Of a stretch of 34,573 bases of DNA, positions 11,793 to 34,573 are shown piece by piece. The stretch spans positions 1-34,573 of the forward strand of contig CALWXH010000018.1 of assembly GCA_944385465.1 (NCBI GenBank), written 5' to 3'. The notes below the pieces were generated by a model. It was not told the origin of the DNA. It was given only the letters and a program-made list of their open reading frames with translations, and searched no databases. The position numbers and the translations under genes are program-made. This DNA comes from an uncultured Oscillospiraceae bacterium (GTDB taxonomy: Bacteria > Bacillota > Clostridia > Oscillospirales > Oscillospiraceae). The first letter of the stretch is position 1. Every line of letters begins with the position of its first letter.

Positions 11793-11859
11793 TTAGGGGG
11801 TAAGCCCTGCGTACGAGGGACGCCCTTTGTCCCGAGTTAAGCCGGGCTTACGCCCCTAA
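11793..11859 (+). ncRNA. Distal arm of the repeat core, copy 2 (candidate RNA domain)
   Basis: TTAGGGG pairs with CCCCTAA, then after one bulged G, GTAAGCCC pairs with GGGCTTAC without mismatch. The inner hairpin GGGAC/GTCCC carries the loop GCCCTTT (11822-11828). Confidence 0.65.
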
Positions 11860-12047: not shown

Positions 12048-12168
12048 TCGCCCTTCCGGGCGAAACCGGCACCCAAAGGGCTCCGGGCACCCCCGGGAAG
12101 AGAGAAGGGTTCCAACAACGGAGTATCTCCTATCTCCTATCTCCTCCCTCCTATCTGAAAATGCGGGA

Positions 12169-16001: not shown

Positions 16002-16949
16002 ATGAAAGTCTTGGGTATCGTGGCCGGGCGCCACAACGGCAACAGCGAGATCCTGGTGAAGGAAGCCCTGCTGGCCTGTCAGGAGGCGGGGGCGGACTGC
16101 AAGCTCATCAACCTGTTTGACTACCACATCGAGCACTGCACCGGCTGCGAGTCCTGCACCATGCAGATGGGGGACGTGGCCATGGGCAAAGGCACCTACA
16201 AGGGCTGCGTGCTCAAGAACAAGGACGACATGGACCGCATCGTCAACGAGATGCAGACCTGCAACGGCATCATCGTGGGCGTGCCCACCTACGACCTCAC
16301 CCCCAGTTCCCTGTACCTGAAGTTCGCCCAGCGCTTCCTGGCCTATGAGCTGGCCTTCCGGCTGGAGATCGGCGAGGTGAAGGAGGATCCCCACATGGTG
16401 GGCGGCCTCATCGCCGTGGGCGGCTCCTGCCACGACTGGCAGACCCTGGCCCTGGAGGGCATGGGGGCCACCATGTTCACCCAGTCTATCTCCGTGGTGG
16501 ACCAGATGATGGCCACCCGCAACGGCCGGCCGGGCAACGTGCTGCTCCGGGACGAGCAGATCCAGCGGGCCCACAAGATGGGCGAGAACATCATCAAGGC
16601 CATCCAGACCCCCGTGGAAGAGCGGGGCTGGCTGGGCGACCCCGACATGGGCATGTGCCCCCGCTGCCACTCCTCCCTCATCTACAAGGGCGATCCCCAC
16701 TGGGACGGCATCCAGTTCCCCTTCGAGTGCGCGGTGTGCGGCGCCGGCGGCGACCTGGTGAAGGACGAGAAGGGGGAGTACCACTTCGTGCTGGCGGAAA
16801 ACGGCCTCATCCGGGACCGGAACGTCAACGCCGCCCGGGCGGAGCACCTCAACGAGATCATCAAGACCCGCATCGAATTCATGCAGAACATGGAGACCGT
16901 TCAGGCCAAGTACGCCAAGTACAAGGAGCTGAAGTTCCCCGCCATCTGA
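16002..16949 (+). CDS. NADPH-dependent FMN reductase/iron-sulfur flavoprotein family
   Basis: 315 residues. The N-terminal flavodoxin-like fold starts with VLGIVAGRHNGNSEIL, the FMN phosphate-binding loop. Cys46, Cys49 and Cys52 in HCTGCESC could bind an iron-sulfur cluster, as in Isf-type flavoproteins. The C-terminal third adds a zinc-ribbon-like unit with CPRC near 219 and CAVC near 240, unusual for plain FMN reductases. It probably moves electrons from NAD(P)H to a small aromatic or quinone-like substrate; the true partner is unknown. GGAGG precedes the ATG by 7 nt. It is monocistronic and divergent from a LysR gene that probably controls it. Confidence 0.85.
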   Translation: MKVLGIVAGRHNGNSEILVKEALLACQEAGADCKLINLFDYHIEHCTGCESCTMQMGDVAMGKGTYKGCVLKNKDDMDRIVNEMQTCNGIIVGVPTYDLTPSSLYLKFAQRFLAYELAFRLEIGEVKEDPHMVGGLIAVGGSCHDWQTLALEGMGATMFTQSISVVDQMMATRNGRPGNVLLRDEQIQRAHKMGENIIKAIQTPVEERGWLGDPDMGMCPRCHSSLIYKGDPHWDGIQFPFECAVCGAGGDLVKDEKGEYHFVLAENGLIRDRNVNAARAEHLNEIIKTRIEFMQNMETVQAKYAKYKELKFPAI

Positions 16950-16967
16950 TTCGGAACACAGACACCG

Positions 16968-16995
16968 AGGGGCCGCCCGGCTGGGCGGCCCCTTT
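16968..16995 (+). terminator. Terminator of the flavoprotein gene
   Basis: AGGGGCCGCCC pairs with GGGCGGCCCCT around GGCT, followed by TT. The same 11-bp stem reappears at 17819-17844 on the far side of repeat copy 3. Confidence 0.85.
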
Positions 16996-17135
16996 CTTGC
17001 CGGGAAAGGCCCGGTCTTTTTCAGATAGGAGTGATGAGATAGGAGATAGGAGAGATTCTGGCTGCGGTTCTCTGTCCTTTTGCCAGCGGGTGCCGGCAGG
17101 CCCTTTGGATTGCCGGGTCTCGTCCCGGCAGACGA

Positions 17136-17165
17136 GGTACTTTCTCTTGCGCAAGAGAAAGTACC
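17136..17165. repeat. Left boundary palindrome of repeat copy 3
   Basis: A perfect 30-bp palindrome with arms GGTACTTTCTCTTGC, the same as copy 1. Confidence 0.9.
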
Positions 17166-17539
17166 CAAAGAGTGCGCATAGGGGGCGAACCCCCTATGCA
17201 CCCCCCGCTCAGTTGCACTGCGTCCCTCTATCACCGGCGTCCTGAACCCGCGGCTGCGCAGGTTCCATCGACGGCCTCCGGCCTCCTGCGTCCGTATGCT
17301 TGGGCTATCCCACCCCCCCGGGCCGCCTAAATTGGCAAGGCCCTGGGGTGCCTGCGCCGTTAGAGGCGCAGACCCGCAGGCTTGAACACCAAGATGAGGC
17401 GCCCATAGGCGGGGGACGGGAGAAACAAATCAAGTCGGCAAAAGGCCGGGGGCCGCCTTGCGTGGCAGGGAGTGTCAGCAGGCGCACGCCGGTCGTTAGA
17501 ACAATGCACCAGTTTTGCTCCCCCGTAAAACGGGGGTCC

Positions 17540-17609
17540 TTAGGGGGTGGGCCGACTGTGAGCATGGAGCGCCCTTGGCTCCATGTCGAACCGGAGGCTC
17601 ACCCCCTAA
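17540..17609 (+). ncRNA. Distal arm of the repeat core, copy 3 (candidate RNA domain)
   Basis: TTAGGGGGTGGGCC pairs with GGCTCACCCCCTAA over 14 positions with one G-T. The inner hairpin CATGGAGC (17563-17570) pairs with GCTCCATG (17578-17585) around GCCCTTG. Both stems differ in sequence from the other copies while the loop is kept. Confidence 0.65.
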
Positions 17610-17620
17610 GCGTGTCTTTG

Positions 17621-17648
17621 GTTTCTTTCTGCACGAGCAGAAAGAAAC
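17621..17648. repeat. Right boundary palindrome of repeat copy 3
   Basis: GTTTCTTTCTGC pairs with GCAGAAAGAAAC around ACGA. Arm sequence differs from copies 1 and 4 but pairing is complete. Confidence 0.88.
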
Positions 17649-17817
17649 TCGCCCTCAGGCGAAACTCGTCGTCGCAAAGTCCGCTTTGCTTCGTTTCCAC
17701 CCAAGGGCGGTGAAAACTTCGCCCGCTCCCTTGCTCCTCCTCTCCCCACCGAAACCGCTGACGCTGGGTTTCGGCGGGGACCCCGATAAAGGGCCTGCCG
17801 GGGTGTCCCCCGGCAAA

Positions 17818-17845
17818 CAGGGGCCGCCCAACCGGGCGGCCCCTG
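17818..17845 (-). terminator. Terminator of spo0A
   Basis: CAGGGGCCGCCC pairs perfectly with GGGCGGCCCCTG around a 4-nt loop; only a short TTT follows on the minus strand. The core stem is identical to the one at 16968-16993. Confidence 0.75.
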
Positions 17846-17858
17846 TCTCGGTTTTCCC

Positions 17859-18626
17859 TCACCCCGCCCGGCGGTTCTCCTCCAGGGAGATGCGGTCGGC
17901 GATCATGGCGATGAACTCGCTGTTGGTGGGTTTGCCTTTGGTGTTGGAGACGGTATACCCGAAATACTTCTGCAGGGTCTCCAGGTCTCCCCGGTCCCAG
18001 GCCACCTCGATGGCGTGGCGGATGGCCCGCTCCACCCGGCTGGCGGTGGTGCCGTATTTCTTGGCCACCGCCGGGTACAATACCTTGGTCACGGCGTTGA
18101 TCACGTCCATGTCCGCCACCGCCAGGCCGATGGCCTCCCGGAGATACTGATAGCCCTTGATGTGGGCGGGCACGCCGATGTCGTGGATGATGGCGGTCAC
18201 CCGGCGCTCCAGCCCCCGGCCCCGCTCCGCCTCGGACTGCGGCTCCTCCGCCGTCAACTGGCTGCTGGCCAGCTGCCGGATCCGCTCCACCACCGCCGAC
18301 AGCCGGCAGGGCTTGAGCATGCAGTAGTCTCCGCCCCGTCCGGCCACCTCCTCCGCCAGGGCAGGCGCGGCAAAGGCGGACAGCACCAGGATCTTCGGCC
18401 CCGTCCCCGCCAGGTGCTCCAGCACCTCCAGCCCATCCATGCCGGTGAGCAGCAAATCCATCACCACCACATCGGGCCGGATCTCCCGGGCCAGGTTCAG
18501 CAGCTCTTCCCCGTCCCCGGTCTGACCCGCCAGCACCAGATCTTCCTCTCCCTCCAGCATATCACGGAACATCCCACGAAACTCCTGGGACGCGTCTGCC
18601 ACCAAAACCTTCTTCTGTTCGTCCAT
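17859..18626 (-). CDS. spo0A: Stage 0 sporulation response regulator Spo0A
   Basis: 255 residues. The receiver domain (about 4-120) has the phosphoacceptor Asp57 in [12 protein letters not shown] and the conserved Lys in MLKP; the C-terminal effector domain has [15 protein letters not shown], the Spo0A recognition-helix signature. When phosphorylated, it turns on entry into sporulation by binding 0A boxes. The usual acidic pair reads VADAS instead of VADDN, so its second Asp is Ala; the Mg2+ site may be altered. ATG 18626 has GAAAGGG at 8 nt; ATG 18632 is too close to the site. It lies just downstream of spoIVB, the conserved order in spore formers, with its own promoter. Confidence 0.96.
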
Positions 18627-18685
18627 TGCCATTACCCTTTCCGGTCCCCGACCAGTGATATTTTCCAGTTTTTAGCTGTGCCTCT

Positions 18686-20739: not shown

Positions 20740-20769
20740 GGTGACTTTCTGTACGCGCAGAAAGTCACC
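20740..20769. repeat. Left boundary palindrome of repeat copy 4
   Basis: GGTGACTTTCTG pairs with CAGAAAGTCACC around TACGCG; the arms differ from copies 1-3 in matched positions. Confidence 0.88.
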
Positions 20770-21147
20770 AAAAGCGCGCCCGAAGGGGGGCGTACCCCCC
20801 TTGGGTATCCCCCCCCGCTCAGTTGGACTGCATCCCTCTCTTTCCGGCGTCCTGGACCCGCGGTTTCCCAGCTTCCCCCGACGCCCTCCGGGCTCGTGCA
20901 GCCGTATGCTTCGGCTGTCCCACCCCACCGGGGCGCCTGGCCAGGCTGGGCACTTCGGCGTGTGCGCCGTTAGAGGTGCAGACCCGCAGGCTTGAACACC
21001 ATGGGTAGGCGCCCATGAGCGGCGCAAAGGATTGCAGGGCAAGACAGCAAAAGGCCGCAGGCCGCCGTGCGTCGCTGGGAGTGTCAGCAGGCGCACGCCG
21101 GTAAGAGAACGCTGCACCAATTCTACGCCCCCGTAAACCGGGGGTTC

Positions 21148-21200
21148 TTAGGGGGGCAAATCCTGGAGGACGTCCTTTGTCCGATGGATTTGTCCCCCTA
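21148..21200 (+). ncRNA. Distal arm of the repeat core, copy 4 (candidate RNA domain)
   Basis: TAGGGGGGCAAATCC (21149-21163) pairs with GGATTTGTCCCCCTA (21186-21200) over 15 positions with a single G-T. The inner hairpin GGAC/GTCC carries GTCCTTT (21172-21178), one base off the loop of the other copies. Confidence 0.65.
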
Positions 21201-21212
21201 TGCGCGTCTTTG

Positions 21213-21240
21213 CCTACTTTCTGCGCGTGCAGAAAGTAGG
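21213..21240. repeat. Right boundary palindrome of repeat copy 4
   Basis: CCTACTTTCTGC pairs with GCAGAAAGTAGG around GCGT. Confidence 0.88.
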
Positions 21241-21319
21241 TCGCCCTGGGGGCGAAAACCCAAAATTCAGAGGGCCTGCCGGCACCCGCCGGCAAAAGGG
21301 ACAGAGAACCGCAGACGGA

Positions 21320-22243
21320 CTATCTCCTATCTCCACTCTCCACTCTTCCCTCTCCACTCTCGCTCCCCACCCCGGTGAGGTCAAAGGCCGGAACAAACCC
21401 CTCCCCCACCGAGGACAGCTCCTGGACATAGCCGGGCAGGCCCAGGTTCTCCATGTAGTCCCGGGCGGCGCGCAGCTCGGAGGGGCGCAGGGTGCGCCCC
21501 AGCTCCGGCCAGGGGGACAGGTCCCCCATGGGGGTGTACTGGGCCATGAGGGAGAAGAGCACGCTCCCCCGGGGGAAGGTCTCCGCCACCCAGTCCATCA
21601 CCAGCTTGGCCTCCCGCACCTGGCCGGGGAGAATCAGGTGCCGGATCACCACCCCGCTCTTCAAAAGCCCATCTTCCAGCCGCGCCGGCCCCCGCTGGCG
21701 GAACATCTCCAAAATGGCCGCCTTGGCCGCCTCCGGGTAGTCCTCCGCCCCGGAGTACCGCTGCGCCAGGGCCGCCGTCACATACTTCAGATCGGGCAGG
21801 TAGACGTCCACCCTGCCCGCCAGGGCCCGGAGGGTTTCCACCCGCTCATATCCCCCGCTGTTCCACACCACCGGCAGGCGGCCGGGGATGGGTCGGGACA
21901 GCGCCCGGGCCAGGATGTGGCTGTACTGGGTGGGGGTGACCAGCTCGATGTTGTGGGCCCCCTGGTGGGCCAGATTCTGAAAGATGGCCCTCAGGCCGTC
22001 CTCGCTCACCGCCCGGCCGAAGTTGCCGTGGCTGATGGCGTCGTTCTGGCAGAACACGCACCCCAGGGTGCAGCCGGAGAAGAACACCGTCCCCGCCCCC
22101 CGGCTGCCGGAGATGCAGGGCTCCTCCCAGTGGTGAAGGGCCGCCCGGGCGATGCGCAGGCCGTCAGGCAGGCGGCACCAGCCCTCCCCCCGGTTTTCGT
22201 CCCGCACCGCGGCGCACCGCCGGGGGCACAGATTGCAGATCAT
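21320..22243 (-). CDS. Radical SAM protein, pyruvate formate-lyase activase-like
   Basis: 307 residues. The N-terminus has a Cys-rich MICNLCPRRCAA segment, and the radical SAM cluster motif CTLGCVFCQN (Cys-X3-Cys-X2-Cys) follows near residue 60. This resembles the YgiQ-unlike, PflX/AmmeMemoRadiSam-type activase relatives; the substrate is unknown. The start is ATG 22243 overlapping the mutY stop by 4 nt (ATGA), with GGAGG upstream. The last 17 codons (GVGSESGEGRVESGDRR) lie inside the low-complexity edge of repeat copy 4, whose TATCTCC unit supplies the stop. The native C-terminus may therefore have been replaced by the repeat. Confidence 0.85.
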   Translation of the reverse strand: MICNLCPRRCAAVRDENRGEGWCRLPDGLRIARAALHHWEEPCISGSRGAGTVFFSGCTLGCVFCQNDAISHGNFGRAVSEDGLRAIFQNLAHQGAHNIELVTPTQYSHILARALSRPIPGRLPVVWNSGGYERVETLRALAGRVDVYLPDLKYVTAALAQRYSGAEDYPEAAKAAILEMFRQRGPARLEDGLLKSGVVIRHLILPGQVREAKLVMDWVAETFPRGSVLFSLMAQYTPMGDLSPWPELGRTLRPSELRAARDYMENLGLPGYVQELSSVGEGFVPAFDLTGVGSESGEGRVESGDRR

Positions 22244-25498: not shown

Positions 25499-25842
25499 AC
25501 CTTGGAACCAAACGCCAGTGGCTCAGGCTGGCCCTGGGTATGGCCGCCCTGCTGTTTTTCGTGCTGTGCTTCATCGCCTCCCGTCCCCTCTACCTCCGGC
25601 TGTCCCACCACTCCGTTTCCGGAGAGGGGATCGTCCTGGACAAGGCGGTCACCGCGGAGGGATACACCCTGGCCGTCCGGACGAAAGAGAGCGGCCAGCC
25701 CTACCTGCTGCTGTACTGCGACGAGGCCTGTTACCGGCAGGCCTCCGCCGGGGACCGGCTCCGGTTTCACGGCCCGGTCAGCCCGCTCACCCAGTCCGGA
25801 CACATTCAGGAATTTGAACTGCAACAGGAGGGATTGCCGTGA
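25495..25842 (+). CDS. Small membrane-anchored protein, second of three related proteins
   Basis: 115 residues with an N-terminal membrane helix (about 11-28) and an extracellular domain related to the previous protein: GEGIVLDK, YTLAVRTKESGQ, YLLLYCDEACYRQ, GDRLRFHG. It overlaps its neighbours by 4 nt on both sides (ATGA and GTGA), so all three are translationally coupled. Its last 15 codons, with the next gene's start, were duplicated at 26178-26270. Function unknown. Confidence 0.75.
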   Translation: MNLGTKRQWLRLALGMAALLFFVLCFIASRPLYLRLSHHSVSGEGIVLDKAVTAEGYTLAVRTKESGQPYLLLYCDEACYRQASAGDRLRFHGPVSPLTQSGHIQEFELQQEGLP

Positions 25843-26150
25843 AACGTCTCACTGCCCTGCTGGCCGCCCTGCTTCTCCTCCTGGCCCTGGTGGGCTGCGC
25901 CCCGGAGAGCTCCTACCCTGAGGATTCCTACCTGATCCGGGGCACCGTGTACCTGAAAGACCAGTTGGCAACTCCCATCATCTGTATCTATCGGGATGAG
26001 GAGTACGGGGGCGGACTGGCCGCCATCTCGGTAGACAATCTGGATGACTTTGAGATTGGCGACCGGGTGGAAGCCCGGGTGGGCGGCCGCATCATGGAGA
26101 TGAGCCCGTGCTTATACCAATACTACTACTCCTGCCGGGTCATCGGCTGA
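25839..26150 (+). CDS. Small lipoprotein, third related protein
   Basis: 103 residues. A signal peptide ending in the lipobox LVGC (Cys20) marks it for lipid attachment. The mature part has RGTVYLKD and FEIGDRVEARVGG, weakly matching the VLDK and GDRL motifs of the two upstream proteins, so it is probably a third, more divergent paralog. GTG start at 25839 follows AGGAGGG by 6 nt and overlaps the previous stop. Its first 11 codons are shared nearly exactly with the gene at 26238. Confidence 0.75.
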   Translation: MKRLTALLAALLLLLALVGCAPESSYPEDSYLIRGTVYLKDQLATPIICIYRDEEYGGGLAAISVDNLDDFEIGDRVEARVGGRIMEMSPCLYQYYYSCRVIG

Positions 26151-26178
26151 CCCCCCTCCCCGCCTGAAACACACGCAC

Positions 26179-26226
26179 AGCCAGCTCACCCACTCCGGAC
26201 ACATTCAGAAATTTGAGTTGCAATAG
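26179..26226 (+). pseudogene. Duplicated tail of the second small exported gene
   Basis: The 16 codons read SQLTHSGHIQKFELQ and a stop, matching SPLTQSGHIQEFELQ at the end of the gene at 25495. The copy has an early TAG where the parent reads CAG. It has no start, so it is a relic of a tandem duplication whose right part carries the start of the next gene. Confidence 0.8.
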
Positions 26227-26237
26227 GAGGGATTGCC

Positions 26238-26678
26238 ATGAAACGTCTCACTGCCCTGCTGGCCGCCCTGGCCGTTTGCCTGGCGGTCTCTGTGTCTGTC
26301 AATCTATATCAGGCTTTTGGTTCCCCCCAAACCCAGCCGGTGCGGGGAACCTATATCACCCCCCAGGAAACCTATGCCCAGAACTACAACAGGGGCGCGG
26401 CCTGGATGGTGCTGACCGAGGACCACTTTTACCTGTATGACGGGCTGACCCTGGAACTGATGGAGGAAGGGGAATACCGCACTTCCGAAGACGGGCAATA
26501 CCTGGACCTGACGGCGGACGGTGCACCCTATATGCAGGCCGCCTTAGACGGCAAAACCCTGTGCCTGATCCACCCGGACGGGAACGGGGTCATCGCAGTA
26601 CAGCATGTGAACAACGAATATGTATTCCCGGGCGCGTACCCAGACTCTTTTTCCCCGGGCGGCGCGGCGAAGGTCTGA
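26238..26678 (+). CDS. Exported protein with a duplicated signal peptide
   Basis: 146 residues. The first 11 (MKRLTALLAAL) equal those of the lipoprotein at 25839; the rest of the signal differs and has no lipobox. The mature part (TYITPQETYAQNYNRGAAWM, then YLYDGLTLELMEEGEYR and LDGKTLCLIHPDGNG) is unrelated to the three upstream proteins and looks like a small beta-sheet domain. Ribosome site AGGAGGG was carried along in the duplication. So a new mature protein is joined to a copied expression and export signal. Function unknown. Confidence 0.75.
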   Translation: MKRLTALLAALAVCLAVSVSVNLYQAFGSPQTQPVRGTYITPQETYAQNYNRGAAWMVLTEDHFYLYDGLTLELMEEGEYRTSEDGQYLDLTADGAPYMQAALDGKTLCLIHPDGNGVIAVQHVNNEYVFPGAYPDSFSPGGAAKV

Positions 26679-34353: not shown

Positions 34354-34573
34354 GGGATTCCGCCGCCTGCGGGCGGCGGGGCGCGCCGTCCCGGTGCGTC
34401 CCAGGTTTCGGCCTGAGGGCCGACCTACTTTTCTCACGGGAGAAAAGTAGGCAAAAGCCCGTTCTTTCGCCGGAGGGTTCCGGCAAGACCTTTGGTTTGT
34501 CGGGTCCCGCCCCGACAGGCGGGGTACTTTCTCTTGCACCAGAGAAAGTACCCAAAGAGCGTGTCCAGGGGGA
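34354..34573 (+). repeat. Dispersed repeat: inverted right-end fragment and start of copy 5
   Basis: 34354-34381 repeats the copy 4 left flank exactly. Then 34408-34451 is a right end in reverse orientation: a TCGGCC/GGCCGA hairpin, then CCTACTTTTCTC/GAGAAAAGTAGG, then GCAAAAGCCCG, matching copy 1 read backwards. A normal left end follows: TGTCGGG/CCCGACA (34498-34504 with 34511-34517), the palindrome at 34522-34553 and CCAAAGAG. The core runs out of the window. This head-to-head join shows the modules recombine. Confidence 0.85.

Follow-up and report, generated by a model that had tools for sequence, protein, structure and literature searches.

Background

For REP elements, roles as terminators or in the protection of mRNA 3′ ends have been proposed, and integron cassettes contain one attC site each. 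In the available passages of the respective publications, REPs are described as being recognised as single strands (PMC8266576), integron attC sites as conserving a structure with little sequence (PMC2727003), and a class termed 'mobile/repeat sequence candidates' (MRSC), obtained from a screen of intergenic regions, as containing a covarying stem in dozens of copies per genome; the authors of that screen allow the DNA form to matter, and MRSC-65-2, which they show as an example, consists of one long stem with UYCCGG repeats (PMC11109978).

The window, i.e. the whole stretch of 34,573 nucleotides that was analysed, is one contig (C18) of a 2.1 Mb genome in 108 contigs (G000). Four sites in it had been described in an initial annotation as the distal arm of a folded core. 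These sites were found to belong to a repeat of about 450-650 bases; the four similar hairpins are end pieces of this repeat, which is probably a mobile DNA element. The arm was found as a terminal inverted repeat in many genomes of the genus, with covariation in the inner stem and between a loop and its flank, with cargo between the ends and with copies that lie between genes. With fair confidence, the element can be described as non-autonomous, MITE/BIME-like, mobile and of high copy number; the arm would be one of the four palindromes contained in its terminal inverted repeats, and the ends of the element would act as folded DNA. Such an element would account for one densely occurring class of GC-rich palindromic repeats in the genus and would provide a testable case of a DNA structure maintained by covariation. 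No earlier description of it was found in the titles and abstract starts of the literature searched, which lay outside subscription journals and preprints.

Anatomy of the element

The copy with the main arm under study (copy 3) was located on the + strand at 17074-17690, from the outer 5′ modules to past the 3′ outer mini-hairpin, flanked on one side by a + strand gene that ends at about 16949 and on the other by spo0A (17859-18632, − strand). Further copies on the + strand were found at 3-581 (copy 1, the 5′ end of which is cut by the contig end), 11327-11982 (copy 2) and 20759-21299 (copy 4), together with the 5′ end module of another + strand copy at 34461-34572, also cut by the contig end. 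Both contig termini (1-90 and 34461-34573 of the window) lie inside copies of the repeat, so the assembly probably broke there. Short runs of GATAGGAG / CTCCTATC repeats were seen beside several elements (about 17015-17060, 12121-12150 and 21320-21345), and a direct repeat of 93 bases with 92% identity, perhaps a tandem gene duplication, was seen at 25779-25871 and 26178-26270.

Copy 3 was found to contain a 5′ terminal hairpin GGTACTTTCTCTTGCGCAAGAGAAAGTACC at 17136-17165, recognised from its sequence and by the family test, and a shortened 5′ arm CATAGGGGGCGAACCCCCTATG at 17177-17198, which corresponds, within the opposite terminal inverted repeat, to the distal arm and where the arm model matched the − strand (R1, 17168-17215). 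The core of the element (17209-17500, + strand) is conserved in G000 and has a predicted fold without covariation support; its consensus consists of long, mostly >90% conserved stretches, e.g. GTTAGAGGTG..GACC.GCAGGCTTGAACACC, in dozens of copies. The core is followed by a CCCCCGTAAAACGGGGG hairpin at 17520-17537 that adjoins the arm, and by the distal arm itself at 17540-17609, TTAGGGGG...CCCCCTAA, with the inner stem CATGGAGC/GCTCCATG and the heptaloop GCCCTTG at 17571-17577. The 3′ terminal hairpin GTTTCTTTCTGCACGAGCAGAAAGAAAC at 17621-17648 was again recognised from sequence and by the family test, and the outer mini-hairpin TCGCCCTCAGGCGA at 17649-17662 by eye. No strand was assigned to the palindromic modules.

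From the outside inward, the order of the modules is mini-hairpin, terminal hairpin, distal arm and CCCCC...GGGGG hairpin. In relatives, the last three form a block of about 138 bases, which often occurs in inverted (−/+) pairs that span about 0.5-1.8 kb, i.e. as terminal inverted repeats. The same inverted layout was found in G000, where most copies have a 5′ arm reduced to AGGGGG...CCCCCT; copies on C37 (C37:13937) and C56 (C56:11521) have a full-length arm at either end. The mini-hairpin, with variants in relatives that include GCCCCCGGCAGGGGC and CGCCGGAGGC (by eye), is the last module evidently common to the copies in relatives, and no shared sequence was evident beyond it (85 ends, by eye). 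The outer boundaries, which were looked at for a target-site duplication, vary, and the flank modules are themselves palindromic.

Throughout the genus, the 5′ half of the arm was found to contain TTAGGGGG, an outer stem, an internal loop of the TGTGAGC type, an inner stem and the loop GCCCTTN, and the 3′ half the inner stem, an internal loop of the YCGAACC type, the outer stem and CCCCCTAA; a short class of arms has no internal loop. The base TTAGGGG/CCCCTAA was present in most of 117 distinct arms. In G161 (two loci) the base was TAGGGGGG...CCCCCCTA, and in G135 (three loci) a frame of TTAGGGG...CCCCTAAGC or CCCCTGAGC, in one case CCCTTAAGC, was found around unrelated palindromes. In G135, a member of another family, the arm position near 1500 of L259, L263 and L264 was seen to hold, within a frame similar to TTAGGGG...CCCCTAAG, A-tract/T-tract palindromes that resemble bidirectional terminators.

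The four arms of the window lie at 417-483 (copy 1), 11793-11859 (copy 2), 17540-17609 (copy 3) and 21148-21200 (copy 4, short class). The stem and loop strings that the initial annotation had quoted were all located there or at most a few bases off, and its statement that the four arms keep fold and loop while the stem varies holds. The outer stems were CAAGCCC/GGGATTG with one mismatch in copy 1, GTAAGCCC/GGGCTTAC without mismatch in copy 2, TGGGCC/GGCTCA with one G·T in copy 3 and GCAAATCC/GGATTTGT with one G·T in copy 4. The inner stems were GGGAC/GTCCC in copies 1 and 2, CATGGAGC/GCTCCATG in copy 3 and GGAC/GTCC in copy 4, and the loops of copies 1 to 4 were GCCCTTT, GCCCTTT, GCCCTTG and GTCCTTT. 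By eye, copies 1 and 2 fall in one arm class, so that the window represents three classes and not four.

Copy number and spread

With copy 3 as the query, at least 43 matches were found in G000, with 75-87% identity apart from the query itself (40 of the 108 candidates scored). When G000 was searched with a covariance model built from 19 arms, at least 107 matches reached E<=0.01, with 150 of 1785 candidates scored; 16 of the matches listed were short 5′ arms of 48-51 bases. An arm match at E<=0.001 was found in 26 of the 42 genomes of the genus, G000 counted. Across the order, with 20 candidates scored in each of 197 genomes, only weak matches besides those of G000 were found, in G135 and G161 (E 7.7e-7 to 6.6e-4). 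By plain DNA similarity, a match was found in 28 of 119 relatives, G000 counted, one of the matched contigs (CALWXG010000011.1) being that of an uncultured Oscillospiraceae MAG; the core was matched in this search outside G000 only in G034 and G039. The stretch 17201-17690 matched none of 50,697 phage records and none of 72,556 plasmid records, and one 34-base end pattern was absent from viral contigs; a phage or plasmid origin was therefore set aside.

Covariation of the distal arm

From G000 and relatives of the same genus 165 arms were collected, of which 134 were parsed, 117 of them distinct; the 31 that could not be parsed were dropped. Native halves of the 117 distinct arms formed 11.5 of 16 Watson-Crick pairs vs 7.2 for halves of different arms, and 39 representatives gave 11.7 for native vs 7.4 for mixed halves. 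Four loop-proximal pairs were Watson-Crick in 112 to 116 of the 117 arms, and at two of these four positions three pair types each occurred in large numbers.

The R-scape-type check that the initial annotation had proposed was carried out as an imitation of our own, not with R-scape itself; the columns were anchored on conserved motifs, and in the tree-aware null the observed changes of each branch were re-dealt among the columns (200 nulls). For all arms, the inner-stem pairs P1 and P2 scored above every null value and P5 reached E 0.04, with a summed score of 1056 vs a null maximum of 289. Double Watson-Crick changes on the same branch numbered 38 vs a null mean of 2.5 and maximum of 8, tree-based counts being approximate because the copies recombine. 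None of the nine outer-stem pairs passed singly (best E 1.65), and the top six of the top 15 column pairs were all proposed pairs, with seven of the 15 not proposed. In the relatives alone, P2 was above all nulls, followed by P1 (0.005), P4 (0.04) and P5 (0.045), and 39 double changes were counted vs a null maximum of 6. In G000 alone (62 arms, anchored) no single pair passed (best E 0.3); the summed score was 363 vs a null maximum of 117, and the double changes were 12 vs a maximum of 3. With a plain MAFFT alignment, the passing pairs were two for the 82 arms of relatives, none for the 83 of G000 and one for all 165; the anchored alignment is the version relied on. The covariation that had been claimed for the whole stem thus stands for the inner stem and, pair by pair, fails for the outer one.

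That selection has kept pairing and loop, as had also been proposed, agrees with pairing beyond chance, and selection is the likely cause, though not the sole one. By eye, the arms fall into a few discrete classes, and these occur together with several classes of terminal hairpin; the pattern is therefore due in part to a swap of whole modules and not to stepwise compensation. The same combination of classes, as well as the unrelated palindromes that fill the arm position in G135, would be expected of a fold without function, in which template switching in replication makes and perfects the palindromes and recombination between copies spreads them with no selection. This explanation is doubtful, as such a process would erase the conserved internal mismatches and would leave the loop heptamer unfixed; nor does it predict that a loop should pair with the triplet at its flank, as described below.

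Contact between loop and flank in the terminal module

Within the terminal module, the three bases that follow the G of CCCCTAAG were found to be complementary to the tip of the next hairpin. In copy 3, the loop GCGC of the 5′ terminal hairpin (17149-17152) is complementary to the flank GCGC (17174-17177), and the loop ACGA of the 3′ terminal hairpin (17633-17636) to the flank CGT (17611-17613). The combinations found include GCGT with ACG, GCGC with GCG, GTGT with ACA, GCGG with CCG, GCAT with ATG and GCGA with TCG. When the loop was taken with one closing base on either side, complementarity at the fixed place was present in 69 of 76 distinct modules, whereas 1000 shuffles of the loops gave 22.2 on average and at most 33, a comparison that is not a strict probability since the modules share ancestry. 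A looser search without a fixed place gave 110 of 164 vs a mean of 33.6 and a maximum of 50 (200 shuffles). The flank triplets were of ten kinds, with matches for nine; outside the genus, a match was present in only two of four modules.

Interleaved pairing of this kind is impossible inside a cruciform arm, which speaks for folding of a single strand. It fits a pseudoknot in a single strand and is not explicable by a protein that reads one fixed sequence. This covariation was absent from the initial annotation; it is the most unusual part of the element and is worth testing by specialists in mobile DNA.

RNA strand or DNA

An alignment of 60 full elements from G000 was folded on each strand, with about equal values (-337 and -328). 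At the 113 pairs predicted from both strands, single changes from Watson-Crick pairs gave a G·T:A·C ratio of 142:144 (tree-counted), and in the union of both predictions G·T was counted 357 times vs 369 for A·C. When pairs were predicted from a single strand, the ratio was shifted towards that strand (304:254 for + and 195:259 for −, read on +), which is what a prediction bias would give. For the control, 30 RNase P RNAs of the genus were fetched, and 27 were used after three with incomplete flanks had been dropped; the same procedure gave 40:10 at shared pairs, and the lean persisted with prediction from either strand (47:13 and 41:12). Other single mismatches numbered 232 in the element vs 12 in RNase P, i.e. 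the pairs of the element break far more often. With G·T equal to A·C in the element vs 40:10 in RNase P, an RNA strand is not supported; covariation alone is no proof of RNA, and the simple G·T vs A·C control separates RNA from DNA here.

By region, double Watson-Crick changes numbered 80 at 40 shared pairs of the 3′ end, 15 at 18 pairs of the 5′ end and 2 at 50 pairs of the core, where 232 single changes were divided into 64 to G·T, 79 to A·C and 89 others. Double changes are concentrated in the end modules and hardly occur in the core; the kept pairing therefore belongs to the end modules, and the description of the arm as the distal part of a folded core was not upheld. Of the functional folded nucleic acid that had been proposed from the four copies, the folding proved real, and RNA is not indicated as its form.

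A structured non-coding RNA on a multi-copy repeat, with one strand transcribed and the arm as a hairpin that binds a protein or ligand, is unlikely. The loop GCCCTTN and the internal loop TGTGAGC/YCGAACC are conserved and strand-specific, the arm covaries, and the pairing of loop and flank would be an ordinary RNA pseudoknot. The arms alone gave a G·T:A·C ratio of 14:4 in G000, an excess that an RNA would explain, 14:13 in the relatives and 27:15 together; these mixed counts leave a small opening for an RNA role of the arm. Against it, the changes over the whole element are strand-symmetric, those of RNase P of the genus are not, the fold of the core lacks covariation, and the orientation to neighbouring genes is not fixed. 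No Rfam family matched the element at gathering in a scan of the window, only two weak miRNA-model hits (E ~8) were obtained on 17200-17750 at E<=10, and no promoter-like site was found in 16900-17900. In ten related loci no relevant family was found, the sole gathering hit being an FMN riboswitch (Rfam RF00050), which lies at 2443-2637 of L263, near an element in G135. A described structured RNA family was rejected with these scans.

Genomic placement and transcription

Neighbouring genes were called by a simple script on both sides of 47 G000 copies, with duplicates removed by hand and ORFs wholly inside the element ignored. The copies were found between tandem genes in the same (19) or the opposite (12) orientation, between convergent genes (10) and between divergent genes (6). 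The middle of the core was spanned by no called gene, and a gene edge overlapped the core in two cases (L009 and L098). The copies thus sit between genes without a fixed orientation.

An intergenic position is also what palindromes related to transcription, i.e. terminators or structures for mRNA 3′ protection, would show. Terminator-like sites were found to be enriched in 16900-17900, with six sites where shuffles gave 1.3; two of the six lie in end modules of the element. The G135 arms with their A and T tracts also resemble bidirectional terminators. This role is nevertheless improbable for the arm: the GC-rich arm at 17540-17609 is not among the terminator-like sites, the gene to the left of copy 3 already has a terminator-like site ahead of the element (16999-17015), and six of the 47 copies lie between divergent genes.

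No arm was found near spo0A in 29 other fetched loci (flanks up to 1.5 kb), and by BLAST no element was found at spo0A in 12 compared relatives. Nothing to the left of spo0A could be aligned in these 12 relatives, so this absence is weaker than an empty site and may reflect rearrangement.

Cargo and movement

Inspection of ten paired-end loci revealed an HTH-like ORF between the ends in seven (five by Pfam, and L078 and L081 by eye); none was found in L070, L169 and L170, the interiors of which are 0.5-0.66 kb. The Pfam scan, which covered ten proteins from five of the ten loci, matched HTH_3 in all five and DUF6809 in two. Among the DUF6809 matches listed, at least 12 lay within 0.7 kb of a listed arm, and all 12 were on the inner side of the arm. 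DUF6809 was not mentioned in the literature searched, which was limited as stated above.

In three close species (G026, G005 and G038) the element was found at one common site with flanks of 92-96% identity. The cargo of G026 was unlike that of G005, and the cargo of G038 was a diverged form of that of G005; DUF6809 was matched in the cargo of G005 and G038. At these loci (L046, L049 and L051) the right-hand arm of G026 was also seen to differ from that of the other two.

By eye, no transposase was found among the ORFs of the ten paired-end loci, and an autonomous copy among them was accordingly rejected. A non-exhaustive search found no transposase or recombinase in or tied to the elements.

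In the favoured reading as a mobile DNA element, the ends would function as folded single strands of DNA that become exposed during replication or transfer. A recombinase encoded elsewhere may recognise the end through its structure, the near-constant GCCCTTN loop and the pairing of loop and flank, and the stem sequence would be free to drift or to be swapped as a module. The elements of G000 may be cargo-less derivatives of cargo-bearing copies. A more specific and tentative proposal, short of being likely, is that these are mobile cassettes of Clostridia with ends of folded single-stranded DNA, a private and self-consistent address given by tip-triplet pairing, an exchanged regulator cargo and an external recombinase. 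The end would then be a hairpin set with free stem sequence, a near-constant loop heptamer and tip-triplet pairing; the cargo, exchanged at fixed sites, would be an HTH ORF accompanied by DUF6809 or by a different small ORF; and the mover would be a recombinase that the element does not encode.

Comparison with known systems

The element resembles REP/BIME with TnpA_REP (RAYT) in its high-copy intergenic palindromes, inverted pairs and mosaics, and differs in forming units of 0.5-1.8 kb with several palindromes and cargo and in having no general GTAG tag; the terminal hairpins were found by eye to start with GTTAC, GTTCC, GGTAC, CCTAC, GTGAC and similar sequences. Five of the six arm-richest relatives (G027, G028, G036, G017 and G002, with 12-30 arm matches each) had no Y1 transposase match, some of these genomes being incomplete, and the sixth (G037) had one match with a stop. 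A Y1 (REP-type) transposase, and with it RAYT, is therefore unlikely as the mobiliser. The genomes G012 and G025 contained 10 and 12 Y1 matches and no arm. The single Y1 match of G000 was found in a locus without an element match (L031, 1450-2211), beside a uvrB-like ORF (by eye) and a partial repeat of the 3′ end of that ORF; this locus was seen to hold GTAGGGGCGCACA...TGTGCGCCCCTAC palindromes of another kind than those of the element.

The likeness to MITEs lies in the non-autonomous state, the long terminal inverted repeats, the lack of a transposase gene, the many copies and the intergenic position, whereas the ends of the element consist of several covarying palindromes. With integron attC sites it shares structure over sequence and small genes that are swapped between such sites, but the base of the arm has no R′/R″ boxes (by eye), and the cargo is flanked by inverted sites, unlike integron cassettes. 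A covarying stem and high copy number are shared with MRSC, compared by description only, whereas MRSC-65-2 has one long stem.

The hairpin ends recall IS200/IS605, and the pairing with a nearby short site recalls the pairing of guide and cleavage site described there in the available passages of PMC8266576; here, however, the hairpin tip pairs with a flank triplet within the element, and most element-rich relatives lack a Y1 match. Should the pairing of loop and flank prove to be a code by which ends are recognised, base pairing within the ends of a mobile element would have one more use, beside the guide pairing of IS200/IS605.
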